A stretch of 64,000 nucleotides of DNA from Candidatus Hydrogenisulfobacillus filiaventi (lineage in GTDB: Bacteria; Bacillota; Sulfobacillia; Sulfobacillales; R501): the NCBI GenBank assembly GCA_902809825.1, contig LR778114.1, positions 744,001 to 808,000 of the forward strand, read 5' to 3'. The notes beneath the pieces are model-generated. The model saw only the letters and a list, made by a program, of their open reading frames with translations. It ran no database searches and was not told the DNA's origin. Shown piece by piece: positions 2,534 through 13,731 of this stretch (the stretch's first letter is position 1; each line of letters starts with the position of its first letter). The position numbers and the translations under genes were made by a program.

Positions 2534-3922
2534 TTAGACCACCCGCGTATAGGGCACGCCGGTCTCCTCCTCGTGGGCGACCGGGCCCAGGTCGGTGTCG
2601 GCGTACTTCCGGAACAGGTAGACCGCGAAGCCCGCCATCAGCCCGTAGACCAGGGTGAAGGTGATGAGGGAGAAGGCGATATCGGCGGCTGGGACCGAAA
2701 CCGGCGGCGACACTCCGTCGGCGGTCTTCAACAGGCCGTAGACCACCCACGGCTGCCGGCCGACCTCGGTCATGATCCAGCCGGAGATGTTGGCCAGGTA
2801 GGGCAGGGGCAGGCTCCACTCCGCCAGCTTGAGGAAGCGCTTGCGGTGCAGGAAGCGGTCGCCCTTGAGCAGGAAGACCCCCCACCACATCAGCAACAAC
2901 ATCAGGGTCCCGGCCAGGATCATGACCCGGAAGGCGTAGAAGACCGGGGCCACGGGCGGGATGTAGTTGCCGGGCCCGTACTGCTTCACATACTGCGCCT
3001 GTACTTGGTTCATGCCTTCAATGGCACCGCTCAGGCGTTTGTAGGCCAGGATGCTGAGCAGGTCCGGGATCTGGATGACGGCGGTGTTCTTATGGGTGGC
3101 GCCGTTGACAATGGCGAACACCTTCCAGGGCGCGTGCTCCCCGGTGGAATTCCACAGCGCCTCCGCCGCCGCCAGCTTCATGGGCTGGGAGGTGCGCAGG
3201 TGGGCCGCCATCTGGTCGCCGATGGCGATAACCAGCACGGTGGAGATGGCCCCTACCACCGCCGCGATCCGGAAGGAATGCTTAAACGCCTCCACGCTGC
3301 GGCCCTTCAGGATCTGGAAGGCACTGATCGCCAGCACGAACACGGAGGCGGTCACCCAGGAGGCCATCACCGCGTGCGGGAACTCCACCCACAGCTGGGG
3401 GTTGGTCAGGATGGCCCCGAAGCTGGCCATCTCCGCCCGGTGATGGACGATCACGTAGCCCACCGGCTCCTGCATGAAGGAGTTGGCGGTCAGGATCCAG
3501 AAGGCGGAGAGGGAGGTGCCGAGGGCGACCATCCAGATGGCTGCTAGGTGCACCCCGCGCGAGACGCGGTCCCAGCCGAACACCCAAATGCCGATGAAGG
3601 CCGACTCCAGGAAGAAGGCCATCAGGGCCTCCACCGCCAGCGGGGCCCCGAAGATGTCCCCCACGAAGCGTGAATAATCGGCCCAGTCGAGGCCGAACTG
3701 GAACTCCTGCAGGATGCCGGTGACCACCCCGATGGCGAAGTTGATGAGGAACAGCTGTCCCCAATATTGGGCCAGCTGCCGGTACTCCCCCTTCCGGGTG
3801 CGGTAATACTGGGTCTCCATGATCGCGATGAGGAAGGAGAGGCCAATGGTCAGCGGCACAAAGAGAAAATGATAGATGGTGGTCACGCCGAGTTGCAGGC
3901 GCGCCAAGCCGAGCTGGGTCAC
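2534..3922 (-). CDS. cydA: cytochrome bd ubiquinol oxidase subunit I (orphan)
   Basis: A 462-residue polytopic quinol:O2 oxidoreductase subunit of the cytoplasmic membrane. The heme ligand motif TTIYHFLFVPLTIG has the conserved His at about residue 18. The proton-path glutamates lie in LAVEALMAFFLES, and GWIMTEVGRQPW is the C-terminal signature. The GTG start at 3922 follows AAGGGAGGA by 8 nt; upstream in-frame codons lack a site and would add a charged tail in front of the first helix. A partner cydB normally follows cydA, but here a terminator and the crp-like gene follow instead, so subunit II must be elsewhere or absent. About 315 bp of leader separates it from the small upstream gene. 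Confidence 0.93.
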   Translation of the reverse strand: MTQLGLARLQLGVTTIYHFLFVPLTIGLSFLIAIMETQYYRTRKGEYRQLAQYWGQLFLINFAIGVVTGILQEFQFGLDWADYSRFVGDIFGAPLAVEALMAFFLESAFIGIWVFGWDRVSRGVHLAAIWMVALGTSLSAFWILTANSFMQEPVGYVIVHHRAEMASFGAILTNPQLWVEFPHAVMASWVTASVFVLAISAFQILKGRSVEAFKHSFRIAAVVGAISTVLVIAIGDQMAAHLRTSQPMKLAAAEALWNSTGEHAPWKVFAIVNGATHKNTAVIQIPDLLSILAYKRLSGAIEGMNQVQAQYVKQYGPGNYIPPVAPVFYAFRVMILAGTLMLLLMWWGVFLLKGDRFLHRKRFLKLAEWSLPLPYLANISGWIMTEVGRQPWVVYGLLKTADGVSPPVSVPAADIAFSLITFTLVYGLMAGFAVYLFRKYADTDLGPVAHEEETGVPYTRVV

Positions 3923-4237
3923 GAGCCGTGTCCTCCCTTCGAGGTGATTGACGGGCAGCTCCCGGTACGGCCGAAGCGGGAGGTCCTCCGGGGAGAGCCC
4001 CCGGGACCGGCCGGCGCACACACCCTACAGGTCGCAGGATAGTCCGGCCAAACGGAAGTCGAACAGGCGCAAACGGCGCAACAATGCCTTTACACTGCCA
4101 GGTTAATAAACCAGCCACTCCGGGTTCTTTTGTGCCTGGACAGTTCGGGCGGAAAAGGCGGGCGATATGAGCGCGAAAGGGCAAAACGGGCCAGGTTGCA
4201 AGCGGGTGGAAAGAACTAGTCCTGTCCGGGCGGGGGG
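3923..4237. promoter_or_regulatory. cydA upstream region
   Basis: 315 bp with no gene. It contains one of the more A/T-rich stretches in the window (about 4080-4135, including TTAATAAACC). I saw no convincing FNR (TTGAT-N4-ATCAA) or Rex dyad and no good -35/-10 pair, so this is only the inferred control region of cydA on the minus strand. Confidence 0.4.
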
Positions 4238-6085: not shown

Positions 6086-6862
6086 ATGCCGGTGATCTGG
6101 CTGCTGCTGACGGGGGTGGTCACGGGCACCTTGACCGGCTTCACCGGGGCCAGCGCGGTTGTGGTCGTGGTGCCGGCGCTGACCGTGGGGCTGCACCTGC
6201 CGTTCCGGGAGGCGGTGGGTACCAGCCTGGCCGTGGACGTGGTCACCTCGCTGGCGGTGACCCGCAGCTACGCCCGCGCCGGCAACCTGCGGCTGCGGCG
6301 GGCGTGGATCCTCATCCTGGGGGCCATGGCGGGGGCCCAGACGGGGGTGCTGCTCGCCCACCGCCTGCCGGTCCGGGGGCTGGTGGGCGGCTTTGCCGTC
6401 TTCATGTTCGGGATGGCGGCCAACTTTTTCTGGCATGCCTGGCGGGACATCCCCCTGGTGTCGGTGCGGGCCCGAGCCGCGGTGCGGCCGCCGGCCTCCC
6501 CCGCCCGACGCCTGGCGGGGGTGGGCCTGATCGGGTTTCTGGTCGGCAATGTGGCCGGGCTCATCGGGGCCTCCGGCGGCGTGCTGTTCCTGCTGGCGCT
6601 GCTCTACGGCCTGGGCTTCACCCTGCGGGAAGCAGTGGGGACGGGCACGGCCGCCATGGCCCTGTCCGCCCTCAGCGGGGCGCTGGGCTACGCCCGGCAG
6701 GGCGAGGTGGATGCGGCCGCCTGGGCGGTGGTCGGCCTGGTGGCGGTGGTCACCGGCTTCTACGTGGCGGGCGGGGTGCAGCGTATCCCCGAACGCTTCC
6801 AGGCGGCCGGCACCGGCCTCATCCTGCTGGGGGTGGGCCTGGCCATGGTCTGGCACGGCTAG
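6086..6862 (+). CDS. TauE/SafE-family membrane exporter
   Basis: 258 residues, about eight helices in two inverted halves, each starting with the family glycine-rich motif (GVVTGTLTGFTGAS and GFLVGNVAGLIGASGG). Family members move sulfite, sulfoacetate or related organosulfur anions. A sulfur operon begins about 1.8 kb downstream, so sulfite export is a reasonable guess, not shown. ATG start; no strong ribosome binding site is visible immediately upstream, so the true start may be slightly different. It ends tail to tail with the next gene, sharing the palindrome GCCTAGGC as both stops. Confidence 0.87.
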   Translation: MPVIWLLLTGVVTGTLTGFTGASAVVVVVPALTVGLHLPFREAVGTSLAVDVVTSLAVTRSYARAGNLRLRRAWILILGAMAGAQTGVLLAHRLPVRGLVGGFAVFMFGMAANFFWHAWRDIPLVSVRARAAVRPPASPARRLAGVGLIGFLVGNVAGLIGASGGVLFLLALLYGLGFTLREAVGTGTAAMALSALSGALGYARQGEVDAAAWAVVGLVAVVTGFYVAGGVQRIPERFQAAGTGLILLGVGLAMVWHG

Positions 6863-8275
6863 GCTTCCTCGCCGTCCGCCGGCGTCCACCAGGACGGCCA
6901 GAAGGGGCGGCGCTCCAACGCGGTGTCGGCGTCGGCCAGAAGGGGTGGCGCCGCTGGCATCCGGGCGGCGAGCGCCCACAGGTCGGGGGCGGCAGCGGGA
7001 TCGCCGGCGGCGTGGCGTACGGCCGCGGCCGCGATCTGCAGGCCCCAGGCACCGGGCCCGTCGGTATAGCACCGCAGGGCCTGCAGCAGGTACTCGCGGG
7101 TGCGCGTGGTGTCGCCCTCCTGGTGGGCTAGGCGGGCCAGCAGACCCCAGGCCCGCGCCTTGGCCCGCCGCCAGCCCCGGCTGTCGGCCGGGGCTGGCGG
7201 CCACCCGGAAGCCCCAGCGCACCAGGCGGTCGCGCGGCCCGGCGCGGGCGGCGGCCAGCACCGTGAGCTCCGCCACCCCGGCCAGCAGCTCGGAAGGCCC
7301 GTGGGATTCCAGCAGTTCATAGGCCTGCTCCAGCAGGCGCAGGGCATCTGCGTAACGGCCTAGACACAGGAAGGTGCGCGCCACCTCCGCCCGCACCAGG
7401 CCCAGCTGGCGTCCGGCCAGGCTGTCGGCGCGGGCCAGGGCTTTAGCGGCCCAGGTTTCGGCGCGCGCGGTCTCACCCTGCCGGACCAGAGCGGTGGCCA
7501 TCCGGGCGGTCAGGAGCGCACGCTGGGTGGGATCCTCCGGCCCGGGCCGGCCCCCCAGGGCGCGGGCGTAGAAGGCCTCGGCCGCCGCCCCGGCTCCCTG
7601 CGCCAGGAACCAGTCGCCCGTGATCTGGTCGGCCACCCGCGCCACCGCCCGCCCCGCCGCCCGGTGGGCGGGGTCCCCGGCGGCCGCGGCCGCCGTCCGC
7701 AGCAGGTGCACCCCCCGCAACACCTCCCCGGCGCCCGAGGCGGCCAGGCCCAGGCATCCGGCGATCTCCGCCGCCATCCGGGGTCGGCCCTGGCCTACCG
7801 CCCATTGCAGGGCGCGGTCGAAGGCCGCCAGGGCGGTGCCCCATTCCTCCCGGGCCAGGGCGATGCGGCCCAGCAGCACGGTAAGGGCGGTTTCGAGCTC
7901 GGGCAGGTCGAAGCGCACCGCCAGCGTCCGCGCTTCCTCCAGGGTTTTCTTCGCCTCCTCCAGGCGTCCGGCCTGCCACAGTGCCTCCCCGGCCTGAGTC
8001 AACGTGTCCAGGGTGTCATAGGCCCGGCTGTCAGCCAGGAAGTAGTCGACCGGCTTGGCCAGCTGACGGGCCAGCACGGCCAGGGAGCGGGAGGAAGGGA
8101 CCACCAGCCCCCGCTCCACCAGGCTGATGTAGCCGCGGCTGAACGTGGTGCCGGCCAGCTGGGCCTGGGAGAGGCCGAGGGCTTCCCGGGCCTGACGGAC
8201 ACGCTGACCCAGCACGCGGGGTTCCACAGGAGGACGGGCGGCGGTGGACGTCCGCCCCGGCTTGCGCTTGTTCAC
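6859..8275 (-). CDS. XRE-type HTH regulator with TPR repeats, frameshifted
   Basis: The N-terminus (about residues 20-80) is a Cro/cI-type helix-turn-helix: VRQAREALGLSQAQLAG, then SRGYISLVERG, followed by about 280 residues of helical TPR repeats. This is the layout of RRNPP-like or ComR-like peptide-responsive regulators. The frame opened at 8275 stays sensible to about 7190, then turns into Pro/Gly/Arg nonsense; the sensible sequence resumes in the next frame (AKARAWGLLARLAHQEGD onward) and stops at 6859. The switch falls in a perfect 11-bp hairpin at 7171-7197. A one-base insertion, a sequencing error or a programmed +1 shift would each explain it. Combined length would be about 470 residues. 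Confidence 0.75.
7171..7197. repeat. perfect hairpin at the frameshift site
   Basis: CCAGCCCCGGC (7171-7181) and GCCGGGGCTGG (7187-7197) form an 11-bp G/C stem with a TGTCG loop inside the XRE-TPR coding region, exactly where the reading frame changes. Confidence 0.7.
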
Positions 8276-8551
8276 CGATGCACCTCCGCCTTCCCCGGCG
8301 CCCGGCCGGATGGGGCAAATTTCCGCAGGGTCGGTTAATCAGAAACGCCAAGGTCCCGGAGGGCCCGGGTCCCGGATCGGTCCGATCAGGCTACGGCGGC
8401 TGCGCGGGAAGCCGGGCAGGGCTGCAAACAGCCGGCTGGCCAGGTTCAGCAGAAGCGCCGTTCCGCGACCGATGTACACTACATTATCCACTCCGTCCGG
8501 CGGCAGGTATCGAGATGACCGTTATCCACCCTGGTGATGTTTTACTACATA
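8276..8551. other. divergent intergenic region with two DnaA-box-like sites
   Basis: This is the upstream region of the minus-strand XRE-TPR gene and of the plus-strand sulfur operon. TTATCCAC occurs twice in the same orientation (8484-8491 and 8522-8529), each matching the DnaA box TTATNCACA in eight of nine positions. No clear promoter for the minus-strand gene was found. Confidence 0.35.
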
Positions 8552-8580
8552 TTGACCGCGGCCGCCAATGGGGTTATTAT
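8552..8580 (+). promoter_or_regulatory. housekeeping-type promoter of the sulfur operon
   Basis: TTGACC (8552-8557), a 17-bp spacer, then TATTAT (8575-8580): five of six matches in each hexamer to the sigma-A consensus. It lies about 110 bp before the rhodanese gene. Transcription would begin near 8587. Confidence 0.75.
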
Positions 8581-8591
8581 GACTATACCAA

Positions 8592-8606
8592 TACCGAGGT
8601 ACGGTA
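8592..8606. promoter_or_regulatory. TACCG-N5-CGGTA dyad, possible operator
   Basis: An exact inverted repeat just downstream of the predicted transcription start of the sulfur operon, in a position suited to a repressor. A partial third half-site (TATACCG) follows at 8610-8616. The binding protein is unknown. Confidence 0.4.
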
Positions 8607-8692
8607 AATATACCGACGCGAAAGGGACTAGTCGGTTCGACCGGACCCAGGGTTGGAAGCCGGGGGAAGTCCCCCTCAGGGAGGCCCTGAAC

Positions 8693-9277
8693 ATGCAGCG
8701 AGCGGACACGGCACGCGTGGTGGTGCTGGGGGCGGGTCTGGCCCTGCTGGCCGCCGGATGTGGTACTGCCCAGGCGCAGGGGAACGGCGGCACCCCCTCC
8801 CCGGCCGCGGTGCAGGCGGCGCTGGTGGCCCGGGTTGATCGCTATTTTGCCCAGGCGGGCGCCAACGGGACCTATCAGATTACGACCAAGCAGCTGTATC
8901 AGGATTTGCAGCGGGATCCGCAGAACTACTTCGTCATGGATGTCCGTCTGCCGCAGAACAAGGACAACTACGGGGTCATTGCCTACGGCTATGATGGCTA
9001 CCATATCCCGGGCGCGGTCAGCATCCCCTATCCGGATGTGGCCAAGGACCTGAGCCGCATCCCCCGCAACAAGACCGTGGTCACCGTCTGCTACACCGGC
9101 CAGTGGGCCAATCAGACCGCCGCCATCCTGCGGCTGCTGGGTTACAAGGCCTACGCCCTGCACCTCTCCATGAGCGACTGGAACCAGAGGACCGACGTGC
9201 TGCCGCCGCGGGCCAAGGTGCCCGACTATCCGCTGGTGTCCGGTACCCAGCCCGGCACCTTCCCGTCGACACCCTGA
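8693..9277 (+). CDS. exported rhodanese-domain lipoprotein
   Basis: 194 residues. The ATG follows CAGGGAGG by about 9 nt. The N-terminus has basic residues, a hydrophobic run and a lipobox-like LLAAGC (Cys about 23), so the protein is probably lipid-anchored outside the membrane. The rest is a single rhodanese fold: FVMDVRLPQN (CH2A-like start), GYHIPGAVSIPY, and the active loop VTVCYTGQWANQ with the catalytic Cys at about residue 133. Rhodaneses carry sulfane sulfur as a cysteine persulfide, typically from thiosulfate or polysulfide. As first gene of the sulfur operon it is a candidate for extracellular sulfane-sulfur capture. Confidence 0.87.
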   Translation: MQRADTARVVVLGAGLALLAAGCGTAQAQGNGGTPSPAAVQAALVARVDRYFAQAGANGTYQITTKQLYQDLQRDPQNYFVMDVRLPQNKDNYGVIAYGYDGYHIPGAVSIPYPDVAKDLSRIPRNKTVVTVCYTGQWANQTAAILRLLGYKAYALHLSMSDWNQRTDVLPPRAKVPDYPLVSGTQPGTFPSTP

Positions 9278-9299
9278 TTCCTGCGGGAGGAGGCGCGCC

Positions 9300-10706
9300 A
9301 TGCTGGGGGCCGGCTTTCTCATCTACATCGCGGTCGCGTCCTGGGTGACCGGCCTCGCGGCGCTGGCCCTGGCCGCCCGGGTGGACCCGGGGTTGGGGGA
9401 GGGCCCGCGGTGGGTGCTGGGCCCGGCGGCGGCCGGTGCGCCCCTGGCGGCCCTGCTGTTGCTGGCGGGGGCCGCCACGGGTACCCTGCCCGGCGCCCGG
9501 GCGGCCGCCCTGCGGGCGGCCGCCCCGCCGCTGCTGCTGACCTTGCTGGCGGCCGGCGTGCGGCGGCGCCCGGCGGCGGTGCTGGTGCTGGAAGCGCTGG
9601 GGCTGCTGGTGGCGGACCATGCCGCCGAGTCCGCCCTCTGGCTCCGGCCCCTGCCCCTGCCGGGGCCCCGTCTGGCGGCCGGGCCGTGGCCGGCTACCGG
9701 CTGGTTCCTGCTGCATCAGCTGCTGGCGGGTCTGAGTGTGGCGGGCCTCCTGCTGGCGGCAGCCGGATTCCTGGCCCCGGCCCGCCCCGGCGGGCGCGCG
9801 GAGGGGGGGCGGGCGCTGCTGTGGGGGGTGCTGGCGCTGGTGCCCCAGCCCCTGGTGGGCTACCGCTACTGCGAGACCCTGCTGCGCTACTACACCCCCG
9901 CCTGGGCCCGGCTGATGGGCGGGGCGGTGCGTCACCTCTGGTTCGATGCCAGCTTCGGGGTGACCGCCCTCTTCACCGGCGCCCTGGCGGCGGTGGCAGC
10001 GGTCTACCTCCGGCCCCCCTCCCGACCGCTGGCGGTGCGGCTGCTGACCGCGGTCTGCCTTCTCCTGGCCGGGGCGGGTATCGCCTGGTTGCTGCGGGAG
10101 GGCGGGCGCATCATGGTGCCGGCCTTCACCCGCACCATGGCGGTGGCGGCGCTGACGGGCCTCGCCGCCGGGTTGGCGGCGGCCGCCTTCTCGGTCCGTG
10201 GTCTGGTGACGGGCCTGGCGGGACTGGCCCTGGTGGTGATGGGGCTGATGGGATGGTCCTGGGTGGCGGCGGACGCGCCCTTGGCCTGGGCCAACGGCTG
10301 GATCCGGCGCCCGCCGGCGCCCCCGGTGAGCGTGGGGGCAGGGTACCGGGTGGCGCTCGACGCCGGCTGCTTCACCTGTCATGGGGACGGGGGCGGGTCG
10401 CAGTGGCCCAATCCCGGGGATCCGGCCCAGTATGTGCCCGCCTGGGATTCGCCCGCCTTTGCCGGGGTCTTTGATAGCCGCGGGGGCCGGCAGCGCTTGT
10501 GGACGGTGCTGTGGGACGGGCAGTACGCCTACCGTCAGCGCTATTACCCGCACGGCGGCAACTGGTCGGTGGCCTACCACACGGTGGACAACGCCTACGT
10601 GGTGCCGGCCTGGGCGGGGGTGCTCTCCCGGCGGGACCTGCAAAGTCTGATTGCGTATATCCAGAGCCTGGCCCCGCCGGCGGCCGGCGGGGGCCGGAAG
10701 GGGTGA
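9300..10706 (+). CDS. polytopic membrane protein with C-terminal cytochrome c domain
   Basis: 468 residues; ATG after GGGAGGAGG. About nine to ten hydrophobic helices fill residues 1-330. I do not recognise the family of this membrane part, though it has several His/Tyr/Arg-containing segments (YRYCETLLRYY). Residues about 345-460 form a monoheme cytochrome c domain with CFTCH for covalent heme and a closing helix LQSLIAYIQSL. The usual axial-ligand Met of the MPAW-type motif is replaced (VVPAW) and the domain contains no Met at all. The position between a rhodanese lipoprotein and DsrE suggests a membrane redox partner that takes electrons from sulfur oxidation. That role is inference. Confidence 0.75.
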   Translation: MLGAGFLIYIAVASWVTGLAALALAARVDPGLGEGPRWVLGPAAAGAPLAALLLLAGAATGTLPGARAAALRAAAPPLLLTLLAAGVRRRPAAVLVLEALGLLVADHAAESALWLRPLPLPGPRLAAGPWPATGWFLLHQLLAGLSVAGLLLAAAGFLAPARPGGRAEGGRALLWGVLALVPQPLVGYRYCETLLRYYTPAWARLMGGAVRHLWFDASFGVTALFTGALAAVAAVYLRPPSRPLAVRLLTAVCLLLAGAGIAWLLREGGRIMVPAFTRTMAVAALTGLAAGLAAAAFSVRGLVTGLAGLALVVMGLMGWSWVAADAPLAWANGWIRRPPAPPVSVGAGYRVALDAGCFTCHGDGGGSQWPNPGDPAQYVPAWDSPAFAGVFDSRGGRQRLWTVLWDGQYAYRQRYYPHGGNWSVAYHTVDNAYVVPAWAGVLSRRDLQSLIAYIQSLAPPAAGGGRKG

Positions 10707-10710
10707 GATC

Positions 10711-11073
10711 ATGGCGACCTTGACCATCCTGGTGGCGGCGGCCCCAGAGCACAGCGAACACGGCCGCTTCGCCTTCGAGCTGGCGCGGGCCGCCCGCGGG
10801 CGGGGGCACCGGGTGCGGATCTTCGGGATCGCGGACGGGGTCTGGCATGCCCGTGCCGTCCCCGGGGAGGGCCCGGAACGCCCCTCCCTGACCGAGGAGC
10901 TGGCGGCCTGGCTGGCGGCGGACGGGGCGGCGGAGCTGGCGGTCTGTTCCCACTCCGGGGAGGAGCGAGGGCTGGACGGGATGCAGCTGATCCCGGGGGT
11001 GGTGCGGTCCAGCACTTCCCAGTTCGGGAGCATGGTGGCGGAGGCGGACCGGTGTGTCTGCCTGGTGCCCTAA
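10711..11073 (+). CDS. dsrE: DsrE/TusD-family sulfur-transfer protein
   Basis: 120 residues; ATG 4 nt after the upstream stop. The DsrE-like alpha/beta fold begins with TLTILVAAAPEHSEHGRFAFEL. The conserved persulfide cysteine lies in AVCSHSGEERG at residue 79, matching the catalytic Cys78 of E. coli TusD and the active Cys of DsrE. It is the first of three DsrE-superfamily genes in the order E, F, H. In sulfur oxidisers the DsrEFH hexamer accepts sulfur from TusA; in E. coli TusBCD serves tRNA thiolation. Confidence 0.85.
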   Translation: MATLTILVAAAPEHSEHGRFAFELARAARGRGHRVRIFGIADGVWHARAVPGEGPERPSLTEELAAWLAADGAAELAVCSHSGEERGLDGMQLIPGVVRSSTSQFGSMVAEADRCVCLVP

Positions 11074-11088
11074 GAGGAGGTGGGGAGC

Positions 11089-11445
11089 ATGGCCGACCGG
11101 CTGCTGATCCTGGTCCGGCGGCCGCCGGTGGGTACCCATAACAGCCTGGAGGCCTTCCGGGTCGCCCTGGGGCTCCTGGTGGGCAATGTGGAGCCGGCGG
11201 TGGTGCTGCTGGAGGACGGGGTCTACAACGCCCTCCCCGGGGTGGATCCCACTCGGGTGGGGCGGGCGGCCCTGGGGGTGTTCCTGGAGGAGGCGGTGGA
11301 CTGGGAGGTGCCCATCTACCTGGTGCGGGAGGACGCCCAGGCCCGGGGCCTGGATCCGGCGCAGCTGGCCTCCTTCGTGCGCCCGCTGGCGCGGGCGGAG
11401 TTGGGGGCGCTGATCCGGGAGTACGGGACCGTGGCCGGGTTTTAG
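11089..11445 (+). CDS. dsrF: DsrF/TusC-family sulfur-transfer subunit
   Basis: 118 residues with AAGAGGAGG before the ATG. The start LLILVRRPPVGTHNSLEAFR and the segment VVLLEDGVYNAL are typical of the DsrF/TusC branch, the middle subunit of the DsrEFH/TusDCB complex. There is no cysteine, as expected because this subunit is structural. It sits between dsrE and dsrH with short spacers. Confidence 0.82.
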   Translation: MADRLLILVRRPPVGTHNSLEAFRVALGLLVGNVEPAVVLLEDGVYNALPGVDPTRVGRAALGVFLEEAVDWEVPIYLVREDAQARGLDPAQLASFVRPLARAELGALIREYGTVAGF

Positions 11446-11467
11446 GGGTCCGGGGAGGGAGGCAACC

Positions 11468-11779
11468 ATGACGCTGGTGATTACCGGCAGCAGCCGGGGC
11501 GGGGAGCTGCCCCCGGAAACCCTGCGCCTGCTGGACAGCCTGCTGGACACAAACGAGCCGGTGACGCTCCTGGCCTACGGCGACGCGGTCTACGCCCTGG
11601 CCGCCGGAGCGCCGGGAGCGGCCGCCCTGACGAGCCGTCCGGGCCTGGCCCTGGCGGCGGTGGCCGCCGACCTGGCCGCCCGGGGCCTGGGGGATCCCGC
11701 CCCGGGGGTAGAGGCCATTGATTACGGGCAGGCGGTGGACCGCATCTTCGCGGCCGGCCGCATCTGCACCTGGGTGTAG
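11468..11779 (+). CDS. dsrH: DsrH/TusB-family sulfur-transfer subunit
   Basis: 103 residues; ATG after GGGAGG. It has the small DsrH fold with VTLLAYGDAVYAL and the C-terminal DYGQAVDRIF...CTW, close to the family's terminal pattern. One Cys (GRICTWV) lies four residues from the end, close to the position of the DsrH cysteine that takes part in sulfur transfer. It completes the E-F-H set. Confidence 0.8.
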   Translation: MTLVITGSSRGGELPPETLRLLDSLLDTNEPVTLLAYGDAVYALAAGAPGAAALTSRPGLALAAVAADLAARGLGDPAPGVEAIDYGQAVDRIFAAGRICTWV

Positions 11780-11832
11780 GCTTGGGGACGGGCCCGGCTG
11801 GACGACGGGGACGCGAAAAGGAGGGCATAACC

Positions 11833-12099
11833 ATGGAAGGAACGTCGCGCGAGGAGCTGCTGGAGCGGGAGCCGGACGACATCCTGGACGTGCGGGGGGA
11901 GACCTGCCCCTTTCCGGCCCTGCACAGCCAGAAGAAGCTGATGCGGATGCCGGTGGGCACCGTGCTGGAAATCCTGATCGACCATCCGCCCTCGGCCGAG
12001 GAGACCATTCCCGGCATTTGTGCCCAGCACAACTGGCCGTATGCCTCGGTCAAAGAGGGCGACAGCTGGCGCATCCGCATCCGCAAGACGGGGCGTTGA
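11833..12099 (+). CDS. tusA: TusA sulfur-carrier protein
   Basis: 88 residues; ATG after AAAAGGAGGGC. The SirA/TusA signature is present: DVRGETCPFPAL, with the CPxP cysteine at residue 25 that carries the persulfide. The two-layer sandwich is complete. TusA passes sulfur to DsrEFH/TusBCD and accepts it from cysteine desulfurase or rhodanese. Its position between DsrEFH and a YeeE transporter supports a dedicated sulfur relay. Confidence 0.92.
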   Translation: MEGTSREELLEREPDDILDVRGETCPFPALHSQKKLMRMPVGTVLEILIDHPPSAEETIPGICAQHNWPYASVKEGDSWRIRIRKTGR

Positions 12100-12129
12100 G
12101 GGCAACGGCGACGAAAGGGGGGTTCCGGG

Positions 12130-13383
12130 TTGGGCGCGGTGATTGCCAATCTGCCGGCAGAAATCCCGGGATGGCTGCTGGTGGCCATCTTCTGCCTGAT
12201 GGGGATCGGGCTGGGGGTGGTGCTGGAGCGGAGCCGGTTCTGCTTCACCACCGCCTTTCAGGAGACCATGGAGTTCCATAACCCCTGGATCCTGCAGGGG
12301 GTCTTCCTCTTCCTCGGCATTTCGGCCATCGTGTTCTCCGCCTTTACCCAGAGCGGCACCGTCCATCCGGTGATGGTGGACCAGGGCTGGTACACGGTGG
12401 TGGGCGGCTTCCTGTTCGGGGTCGGCATCGCCATGTGCGGGGCCTGCGCCACCGGGCAGTTGTTCCGGGCCGGGTCCGGTTACGTGGCCAACTGGCTGGA
12501 GTTCATCGGGGCCGGCCTGGGCGGCACCCTGTTCGTGCTCTTCGTCTATCAGCCGGTGGAGAAGCCGGCGCTGGCCGCCTCCCGCCCCATCACCCTCTAC
12601 GGGGCCCTGCATCTCCCCCCGCTGGTCTGGGGGCTGTTCACGGGGGCGGTGTTCATCGGGCTGGCGTTCTGGCTGCGCCGCTTTGTCCCTCAGCGCAAGG
12701 CCCAGGGCTACCAGGAGAAGGCCTTTACCTTCTCCCTCAAGCAGCCCTGGCATCCCTATGCGGGCGGGGTGGCGCTGGCGGTGCTGACTGTACTCTACGT
12801 GGTCCTGTCCGCCGGACAGTCCATGAGCGTCATGAGCCCCAACACCCTCTCCATCGCCTGGCTGCTTAACTGGATTACGCGGCCCCTGGGCTACAACCTG
12901 GCGGATAAGCCCTGGTTCGCCATGGGGCAGGTGCACGGCCGCCTGCTTTCGCGGCTCGACCCCTTGAGCCTCAACCGGCTGGCGGTGGCGCATGTGGGAC
13001 ACCACTTGGGCTACCTGGCCCTGGGCATCTGGCTCTTCATTCCCATCTCCATCCTGGGGGCCTTCCTCTCCTCCAAGGTGGCGGGCGACTTCCGTATCCG
13101 CATCCCCGCCCGCCGCTCCAAGCTGTTGTGGTACCTGATAGGCGGGGTGTTCATGGGCTTCGGGGCGCAGATGGCGCTGGGCTGCAACATCACCGCCTGG
13201 TCGGACAGCTTTGCGGTGCGGATGGACCTCTCCGGACTGCTGTTCACGGTGGGGCTGTTCCCGGGGGTGTGGTTCGGCACCCAGCTGGACGAGTGGATCG
13301 CGGAGCGCATCTGGAGCAACCGGACCCTGGCGGCCAAGCGGCGCACGGCGCCGGTATCCTCACCGGCCCCCACCACCCGCTGA
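12130..13383 (+). CDS. YeeE/YedE (TsuA)-family sulfur-compound transporter
   Basis: 417 residues in about ten helices, two pseudo-symmetric halves. The conserved cysteine motifs of the thiosulfate transporter TsuA are present: RSRFCFTTAF near residue 40, GVGIAMCGACATGQLFRAG near residue 100, and GAQMALGCNITAW near residue 345. In TsuA these cysteines line a thiosulfate relay path. The TTG start lies about 9 nt after AAAGGGGGG. Linkage to TusA is common in bacteria that use thiosulfate. The loop between halves is longer than in short YeeE proteins. Confidence 0.88.
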   Translation: MGAVIANLPAEIPGWLLVAIFCLMGIGLGVVLERSRFCFTTAFQETMEFHNPWILQGVFLFLGISAIVFSAFTQSGTVHPVMVDQGWYTVVGGFLFGVGIAMCGACATGQLFRAGSGYVANWLEFIGAGLGGTLFVLFVYQPVEKPALAASRPITLYGALHLPPLVWGLFTGAVFIGLAFWLRRFVPQRKAQGYQEKAFTFSLKQPWHPYAGGVALAVLTVLYVVLSAGQSMSVMSPNTLSIAWLLNWITRPLGYNLADKPWFAMGQVHGRLLSRLDPLSLNRLAVAHVGHHLGYLALGIWLFIPISILGAFLSSKVAGDFRIRIPARRSKLLWYLIGGVFMGFGAQMALGCNITAWSDSFAVRMDLSGLLFTVGLFPGVWFGTQLDEWIAERIWSNRTLAAKRRTAPVSSPAPTTR

Positions 13384-13407
13384 GGCACGGGAAGGAGGCG
13401 GATCCTG

Positions 13408-13731
13408 ATGGAAATGGAAGGCCGGTGGCCGGTGGCGGTGGCCTTTGTCATTGCCGGCATCCTGACCGCGGTGCTGGCCCTGTTCCCGCCGGGAGCGGCG
13501 GCCCGCGGCGGGCCGGTGCCCGCCCGCACCACCGCCGTCACCCCCCAGGCCCCCCGCCGGGGGCGGCAGCCCCGCCCCCGCGGTCGGCTGCGGCGGCTAG
13601 CCGCAGGCTGGCGTCCGCGATGGCCGGGGCGGCCCGCCCCGGCCATCCGGCATGCCCTCAGGCCGGCTCCCCGCCGCCCAGCACTTCCCACACCAGGGGC
13701 GGAGGGGCGACCGCCTCCGCGCTCCAGGTGA
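13408..13731 (+). CDS. small single-span membrane protein, end uncertain
   Basis: ATG follows GGAAGGAGG by 9 nt, so initiation looks real. Residues 8-28 (VAVAFVIAGILTAVLALFPP) form one helix. The following 80 residues are Arg/Pro-rich and unconvincing; the frame passes a terminator-like hairpin at 13619-13647 and runs into the 3' end of the converging phosphorylase gene. A one-base shift in the C/G runs near 13541-13565 would stop it at about 13599. Last gene of the sulfur operon; function unknown. Confidence 0.45.
   Translation: MEMEGRWPVAVAFVIAGILTAVLALFPPGAAARGGPVPARTTAVTPQAPRRGRQPRPRGRLRRLAAGWRPRWPGRPAPAIRHALRPAPRRPALPTPGAEGRPPPRSR
13619..13647. terminator. terminator between the sulfur operon and the phosphorylase gene
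   Basis: A 13-bp perfect stem, GATGGCCGGGGCG (13619-13631) and CGCCCCGGCCATC (13635-13647), with a 3-nt loop between convergent transcription units. No T-run. Confidence 0.6.

Follow-up and report, generated by a model that had tools for sequence, protein, structure and literature searches.

What is achieved by an operon that joins an exported rhodanese and a membrane cytochrome c to genes of cytoplasmic sulfur relay? Such a gene set lies in the closed genome (2,570,337 bp) of 'Ca. Hydrogenisulfobacillus filiaventi' R50, a thermoacidophilic hydrogen oxidiser (55 C, pH 3; PMC10080006). The window analysed here is a stretch of 64,000 nucleotides of this genome (contig LR778114.1, positions 744,001 to 808,000), and all coordinates refer to it. 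The original prediction saw in the operon a possible undescribed module for oxidation of thiosulfate or sulfane sulfur. We lean, with slightly more confidence than doubt, towards another answer: the operon would be an extracytoplasmic sulfane-sulfur capture and import module of Sulfobacillus-like acidophiles. The features on which the argument is built are the following, gene identities within the operon having been assigned with Pfam and NCBIfam.

6086..6862, + strand: TauE/SafE family sulfite-exporter-like protein (Pfam TauE 9.3e-37)
6859..8275, - strand: XRE-TPR protein, divergent, candidate regulator (HTH_3 and TPR matches)
8552..8580, + strand: sigma-70-like operon promoter, TTGACC-N17-TATTAT (site search)
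8693..9277, + strand: exported rhodanese lipoprotein, lipobox C23, catalytic C133 in CYTGQW (Pfam Rhodanese 5.6e-13)
9300..10706, + strand: membrane protein, about 9-11 TM helices and, at the C-terminus, a monohaem cytochrome c domain (CFTCH at 357-361; Val435 at the axial Met position)
10711..11073, + strand: DsrE, active-site-type C79 (Pfam DsrE 2.3e-14)
11089..11445, + strand: DsrF (Pfam/NCBIfam)
11468..11779, + strand: DsrH/TusB-like protein, Cys not conserved (Pfam/NCBIfam, alignment)
11833..12099, + strand: TusA (Pfam, alignment)
12130..13383, + strand: predicted YeeE/YedE-family sulfur transporter (Pfam Sulf_transp 9.5e-46)
13408..13600, + strand: gene of a small membrane-tethered arm peptide (a TM helix, then a flexible linker, then AVGCGG just before the stop)

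Rhodanese, cytochrome c, DsrE, DsrF, DsrH, TusA and YeeE follow each other on one strand with gaps of 4-53 nt, and the arm-peptide gene comes after yeeE. Since no sigma-70-like site other than that at 8552-8580 occurs within 5.7 kb (0.3 expected in shuffled sequence), the predicted arrangement of one promoter followed by closely spaced, co-oriented genes is borne out. The ATG at 8693 is the fitting start of the rhodanese because the GTG at 8534 stands upstream of the promoter; translation from this ATG leads into the lipobox (LLAAGC), which makes the protein a surface-anchored lipoprotein. Both the rhodanese domain and its catalytic cysteine are present, and the lipobox with C23 as well as C133 are invariant in the alignment of three orthologues. 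The TauE/SafE protein is possibly related to the operon in function. A cytochrome bd gene also lies near the operon, at 2534-4021 of the window. No plasmid match was found.

If these genes work together, their linkage should reach beyond one genome. The cytochrome occurs in three of the 42 genomes of the order, YeeE in exactly the same three, and each has them in one gene cluster. At class level the cytochrome is found in five of 154 genomes spanning several families, a sixth match, weak and confined to the haem motif, being left out of this count; the phylum-level search added one further match (G409), likewise weak and limited to the haem motif. The five counted loci are the one in the window, L005 (G028), L006/L008 (G009), L007 (G477, LSA3.bin48) and L009 (G476, JA1.bin10). 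A single-sequence scan of genome contigs for the cytochrome returned no relatives, its patterns being too specific, and the LSA3 and JA1 loci were found by YeeE profile scan. The neighbour check proposed with the original prediction came out in its favour: tusA-yeeE lies downstream of the cytochrome in 5/5 loci, with dsrEFH in between in 4/5 (missing in JA1). The linkage of the cytochrome with dsrEFH, tusA and yeeE is beyond chance, which supports a conserved module. Identity of the window proteins to their relatives is 36-51% for the cytochrome and about 63-71% for YeeE. The rhodanese lipoprotein gene precedes the cytochrome gene in three loci and is absent there in G028, while the G009 contig starts within the cytochrome gene. 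Rhodanese is thus not obligatory for the module, as its absence from the G028 locus implies, and neither is dsrEFH, in view of the JA1 locus.

The cytochrome is an unusual one. Its haem domain has a single CxxCH, CFTCH or CYTCH among the five homologues, and its end resembles cytochrome c6, with VPAW in all five where c6 has MPAW carrying the axial Met. The R50 haem domain holds no Met residue whatsoever, and the alignment of the five cytochromes offers no invariant His, Cys or Lys ligand besides CxxCH. Because the axial Met is replaced by Val and no invariant substitute is present, the haem site may be open or unusual, as in substrate-binding enzymes. Among the five sequences no His is invariant in the TM part, which makes a bis-His haem b improbable there, and Pfam and PDB sequence searches brought no recognised relative of this domain. 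Structure prediction with five sequences was too weak both for the full protein (pLDDT 53) and for the haem domain alone (pLDDT 43), and a PDB fold search came back empty.

The most unusual part of the operon was missed by the earlier reading. The open reading frame 13408-13731, as listed, was rejected as a protein, its second half being out of frame with respect to the relatives: the first half encodes a TM helix, and a conserved PAVGCGG end follows in the next frame with its stop at 13600. The shift of one nucleotide lies near two C6 runs (13541-13546 and 13550-13555). R50 was assembled from Nanopore reads with Illumina polishing, and the reading frame of the divergent XRE-TPR gene (6859..8275) also appears to switch; for both reasons the frameshift in the arm gene is likely an assembly indel.

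Five copies of the arm peptide, with two types of anchor, come from four of the five module genomes. They are 60-70 residues long and consist of an N-terminal anchor, a linker rich in Ser, Thr, Pro, Gly and Ala, and an exact (G/A)VGCGG end. In R50, G009 and G028 the anchor is a TM helix and the gene lies directly 3' of yeeE. The LSA3 copy has a lipobox and sits between rhodanese and cytochrome; a second, TM-anchored LSA3 copy is 26 kb away. In G476, a MAG whose contig ends within yeeE, no arm peptide was found, and the VGCGG-stop matches there were rejected as such. When the 42 genomes of the order were searched for VGCGG followed by a stop, the single R50 site was that at the operon, and plausible coding copies, judged by eye, were confined to the three module genomes. 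Other matches in the order were set aside, also by eye, as chance or non-coding: they are short, look non-coding or end in TGG, and they have neither anchor nor module. A literature search, with most subscription journals outside its scope, found no published description of such peptides. By its likeness to SoxY and its gene neighbourhood, the arm peptide would be a sulfur carrier.

The remaining proteins present further cysteines suited to sulfur transfer. Besides rhodanese C133, DsrE C79 (conserved in all four loci having dsrEFH) and TusA C25 (in CPFP, conserved with C63 in 5/5) appear in the alignments as claimed. The R50 DsrE, DsrF and DsrH are weak matches to the type I DsrEFH family models of NCBIfam (26.8, 30.7 and 43.1 bits, all below the equivalog cut-offs), and LSA3 DsrH, at 56.3 bits, lies above its cut-off. 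In YeeE, C38, C103, C106 and C352 are invariant in the three copies aligned. Three of them, C38, C106 and C352, correspond to the cysteines that S. thermophila TsuA requires for function (Cys22/91/293). The extra C103 gives CGAC in 5/5; at this place TsuA and six further relatives read AGGC. A YeeE profile scan over contigs of 84,980 species returned three close loci and otherwise distant relatives, and within that reach this YeeE clade looks confined to the class. The claim of a TsuA-type transporter importing thiosulfate is unproven: the Sulf_transp domain and the TsuA cysteines are present, but the protein scores only 100.3 bits against the TsuA model, whose curated cut-off is 400.

Another reading is a module for selenium rather than sulfur, YedE/YedF-like in its uptake and trafficking. 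Among the NCBIfam matches, YedE/FdhT and YedF rank first or nearly so, YeeE and TusA scoring about equally well or better on these selenium-linked models, but every one of them is far below its cut-off. A candidate selenocysteine lipoprotein follows the module directly in two relatives and is missing from R50; SelB-family matches above cut-off occur in 38/42 genomes of the order, yet the module is rare. Linkage to DsrEFH and sHdr indicates sulfur. We consider a selenium function very improbable.

Where could imported sulfur go? The LSA3 locus (L007) starts with a DsrE2-like protein, rhodanese, the GVGCGG lipoprotein, cytochrome, DsrE, DsrF, DsrH, TusA and YeeE, continues through a second TusA, a DsrE3-like protein, sHdrC1, sHdrB1, sHdrA, sHdrC2 and sHdrB2, and ends with two LbpA-like proteins, lipoate ligase and another LbpA-like protein. 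R50 has two sHdr-lbpA clusters (L061 and L062, lying near 655-664 kb and 1096-1102 kb of the genome), G028 has one (L063), and G009 has a homologue of HdrB1, the only component checked there. No dsrA match was found in R50, and none exceeded the cut-off in the 42 genomes of the order. That the window itself has no sHdr genes agrees with its content, although the genome carries them elsewhere. The original prediction had named a full sHdr or Dsr pathway elsewhere, using this DsrEFH set, as the finding that would speak against it; this is largely what emerged for sHdr in the R50 genome.

A complete membrane-coupled thiosulfate oxidation, independent of sHdr, Dsr and Sox, in which the cytochrome passes electrons of sulfane sulfur from rhodanese or arm to the respiratory chain, appears improbable to us. 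The strict linkage of the cytochrome, its possibly open haem site and the nearby cytochrome bd gene would suit it, but the operon encodes nothing for the step from sulfane sulfur to sulfite, sHdr genes occur in R50, G028 and LSA3 (with the HdrB1 homologue in G009), and R50 reportedly gains no energy from thiosulfate oxidation (PMC10080006). With sHdr elsewhere in R50 and contiguous with the module in LSA3, a new oxidation pathway is too strong a claim and the idea of an undescribed oxidation module is not borne out. More probably, the module feeds sHdr rather than replacing it.

As an electron donor, R50 reportedly uses neither thiosulfate nor tetrathionate nor sulfide; thiosulfate and tetrathionate serve as sulfur source, and sulfate is not assimilated (PMC10080006). 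An oxidative role in R50 is for this reason unproven, and an assimilatory one is a serious rival there. YeeE and TusA would then be a TsuA/TsuB-like pair supplying thiosulfate or sulfane sulfur for cysteine synthesis and thiolation, with rhodanese and cytochrome only processing the compound outside. The TsuA cysteines conserved in YeeE agree with such uptake. But the LSA3 module is contiguous with sHdr, DsrEFH exceeds the needs of an assimilation pair, a cytochrome is odd in a purely assimilatory role, and YeeE is far below the TsuA cut-offs. On balance we hold this explanation to be unlikely, though less so than those considered above.

Returning to capture and import, our best model is built upon the observed gene content, conservation, linkage, anchors and motifs, and upon sHdr in the same genomes. 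Thiosulfate, polythionate or polysulfide would supply sulfane sulfur, which rhodanese lipoprotein, open-haem cytochrome or both would place on the arm cysteine, the contribution of the cytochrome being an oxidative step. The membrane-tethered GVGCGG peptide would act as a stand-alone, SoxY-like swinging arm that reaches YeeE. YeeE would move the sulfur inward via its cysteines, C25 of TusA would take it inside, and C79 of DsrE would relay it to sHdr-LbpA or, in R50, possibly to sulfur assimilation. Import by YeeE and relay by TusA and DsrEFH are presumed from published relatives of these families; the loading of the arm, the role of the cytochrome and the direction of electron flow are presumptions proposed here only. 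The model is supported by the catalytic-type cysteines conserved in rhodanese, DsrE and TusA, and by YeeE, which keeps the TsuA cysteines and has one more. Against it count the non-use of these compounds as electron donors by R50, the missing rhodanese in G028 and dsrEFH in JA1, the frameshifted arm gene of the window with no arm found in G476, the cytochrome TM domain with no recognised relative, and the selenium-linked YedE/YedF scores.

A bolder hypothesis, which we put forward tentatively and with less than even confidence, is that anchored (G/A)VGCGG peptides are a new minimal extracytoplasmic carrier. They would do the job of SoxY in the absence of SoxYZ: a Met-less, catalytic-type cytochrome c would load them, and unloading would go through the four-cysteine YeeE into sHdr. 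In many sHdr organisms SoxYZ, which could present the sulfur, is missing. If our assumption is true, a tethered GCGG peptide beside YeeE would be a simple donor, consisting of a single short peptide and its one carrier cysteine. A family of membrane cytochromes c without axial Met would also gain a function, and the question of how Gram-positive acidophiles, which have no enclosed periplasm, hold a reactive sulfur carrier at the membrane would be answered. Little is said to be understood of how external sulfane sulfur reaches the cytoplasm, SoxT1A being named as the sole demonstrated importer in dissimilatory oxidisers (PMC11582611).

Several known systems resemble parts of the operon. The YTD cluster (yeeE-tusA-dsrEFH type II) of sulfate reducers, disproportionators and cable bacteria relays sulfur from TusA to DsrEFH beside YeeE; its co-occurrence with reductive dsrAB (73.9%) is typical, not strictly defining (PMC13293266). 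Synteny of yeeE, tusA, dsrE, dsrF and dsrH in the window and three relatives (JA1 lacks dsrEFH), the conserved DsrE cysteine, TusA as acceptor and a YeeE-family transporter are shared with it. Here, in contrast, no dsrA was found and the sulfur probably ends in sHdr; by their scores, DsrE/F/H are only remotely related to the TusD/C/B (DsrE/F/H) families, and rhodanese lipoprotein, cytochrome and GCGG arm are added outside. SoxT1A of Hyphomicrobium denitrificans, a YeeE-type importer, delivers sulfur to sHdr (PMC11582611). As there, a YeeE-family importer is combined with cytoplasmic sulfur transferases and sHdr, an external carrier is proposed as donor, and sHdr-LbpA co-occurs with the module in the R50, G028 and LSA3 genomes. 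The donor of SoxT1A is however SoxYZ with SoxXA/SoxB, and cysteine is missing from the small TM protein (56 aa) encoded next to soxT1A, whereas the operon arm ends in GVGCGG. With TsuA/TsuB uptake the operon shares the Sulf_transp fold family, the three functional cysteines and a TusA-like partner, but its proteins fall below TsuA and TsuB cut-offs, YeeE has an extra conserved cysteine and the neighbourhood is another one.

Outside the membrane, the nearest parallel is SoxY, which carries sulfur on the GGCGG of its flexible C-terminus (PMC6067878). The arm peptides have a similarly flexible extracytoplasmic end with a Gly-flanked C-terminal cysteine, but no SoxY domain or SoxZ partner, and instead a membrane or lipid anchor and a low-complexity linker; a Pfam search for SoxY in the 42 genomes of the order gave no match, as did its control. 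The cytochrome recalls class I cytochromes c (c6 or cbb3 subunit III-like) by its CxxCH and C-terminal helix with (M/V)PAW, but has Val for the axial Met in 5/5 and is fused to a large TM domain. Taken together, the dsrEFH-tusA-yeeE core is a sulfur import and relay system of the YTD/SoxT type, already known but met here in a lineage and setting that are new, and the extracytoplasmic set of GCGG arm, unusual cytochrome and rhodanese appears, within the extent of our search, to be new.

The arm peptide gene is directly followed, in two relatives of R50, by a gene for a YncE/YVTN-like beta-propeller lipoprotein:

L005:12620-13786, beta-propeller lipoprotein gene at the module locus of G028
L006:4180-5334, beta-propeller lipoprotein gene at the module locus of G009

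Both genes carry an in-frame TGA at the same site (...GPHGTGIGP-TGA-DVS...). It is followed some 15 nt later by a hairpin that clearly beats shuffled sequences in L006 only, and SelB-family matches are present throughout the order. Judging from these sequence features, we propose the beta-propeller lipoprotein as a candidate new selenoprotein of the sulfur module; R50 itself lacks it. G028 also harbors a region that is akin to the lipoprotein rhodanese and whose matched stretch contains a single in-frame TGA:

G028:C1:3150405-3151442, (-), two-domain rhodanese region

Two further loci were recorded in LSA3.bin48 and R50:

G477:C67:10575-10592 (locus L082), (-), second GVGCGG peptide gene of LSA3.bin48, this one TM-anchored
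G000:C1:about 1096-1102 kb (L062), second sHdr-like cluster of R50, with lbpA and DsrE3

The former lies outside the module and adjoins a pyrR-like gene. We found no mention of sHdr genes in the R50 paper (PMC10080006), whose main text does not contain the word "heterodisulfide".

Around the operon, the following genes were also recorded in the window:

2534-4021, (-), subunit I of a cytochrome bd oxidase, upstream of the operon by a few kb
6086-6862, (+), TauE/SafE sulfite-exporter family, near the operon
6859-8275, (-), divergent XRE-TPR regulator

The reading frame of the regulator gene apparently switches within the gene, as in the arm gene; the frame changes in both genes might reflect residual indel errors in the R50 assembly. 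The nearby cytochrome bd oxidase could possibly serve as an electron sink. As for the TauE/SafE gene, the thiosulfate model of H. denitrificans likewise includes TauE (PMC11582611).
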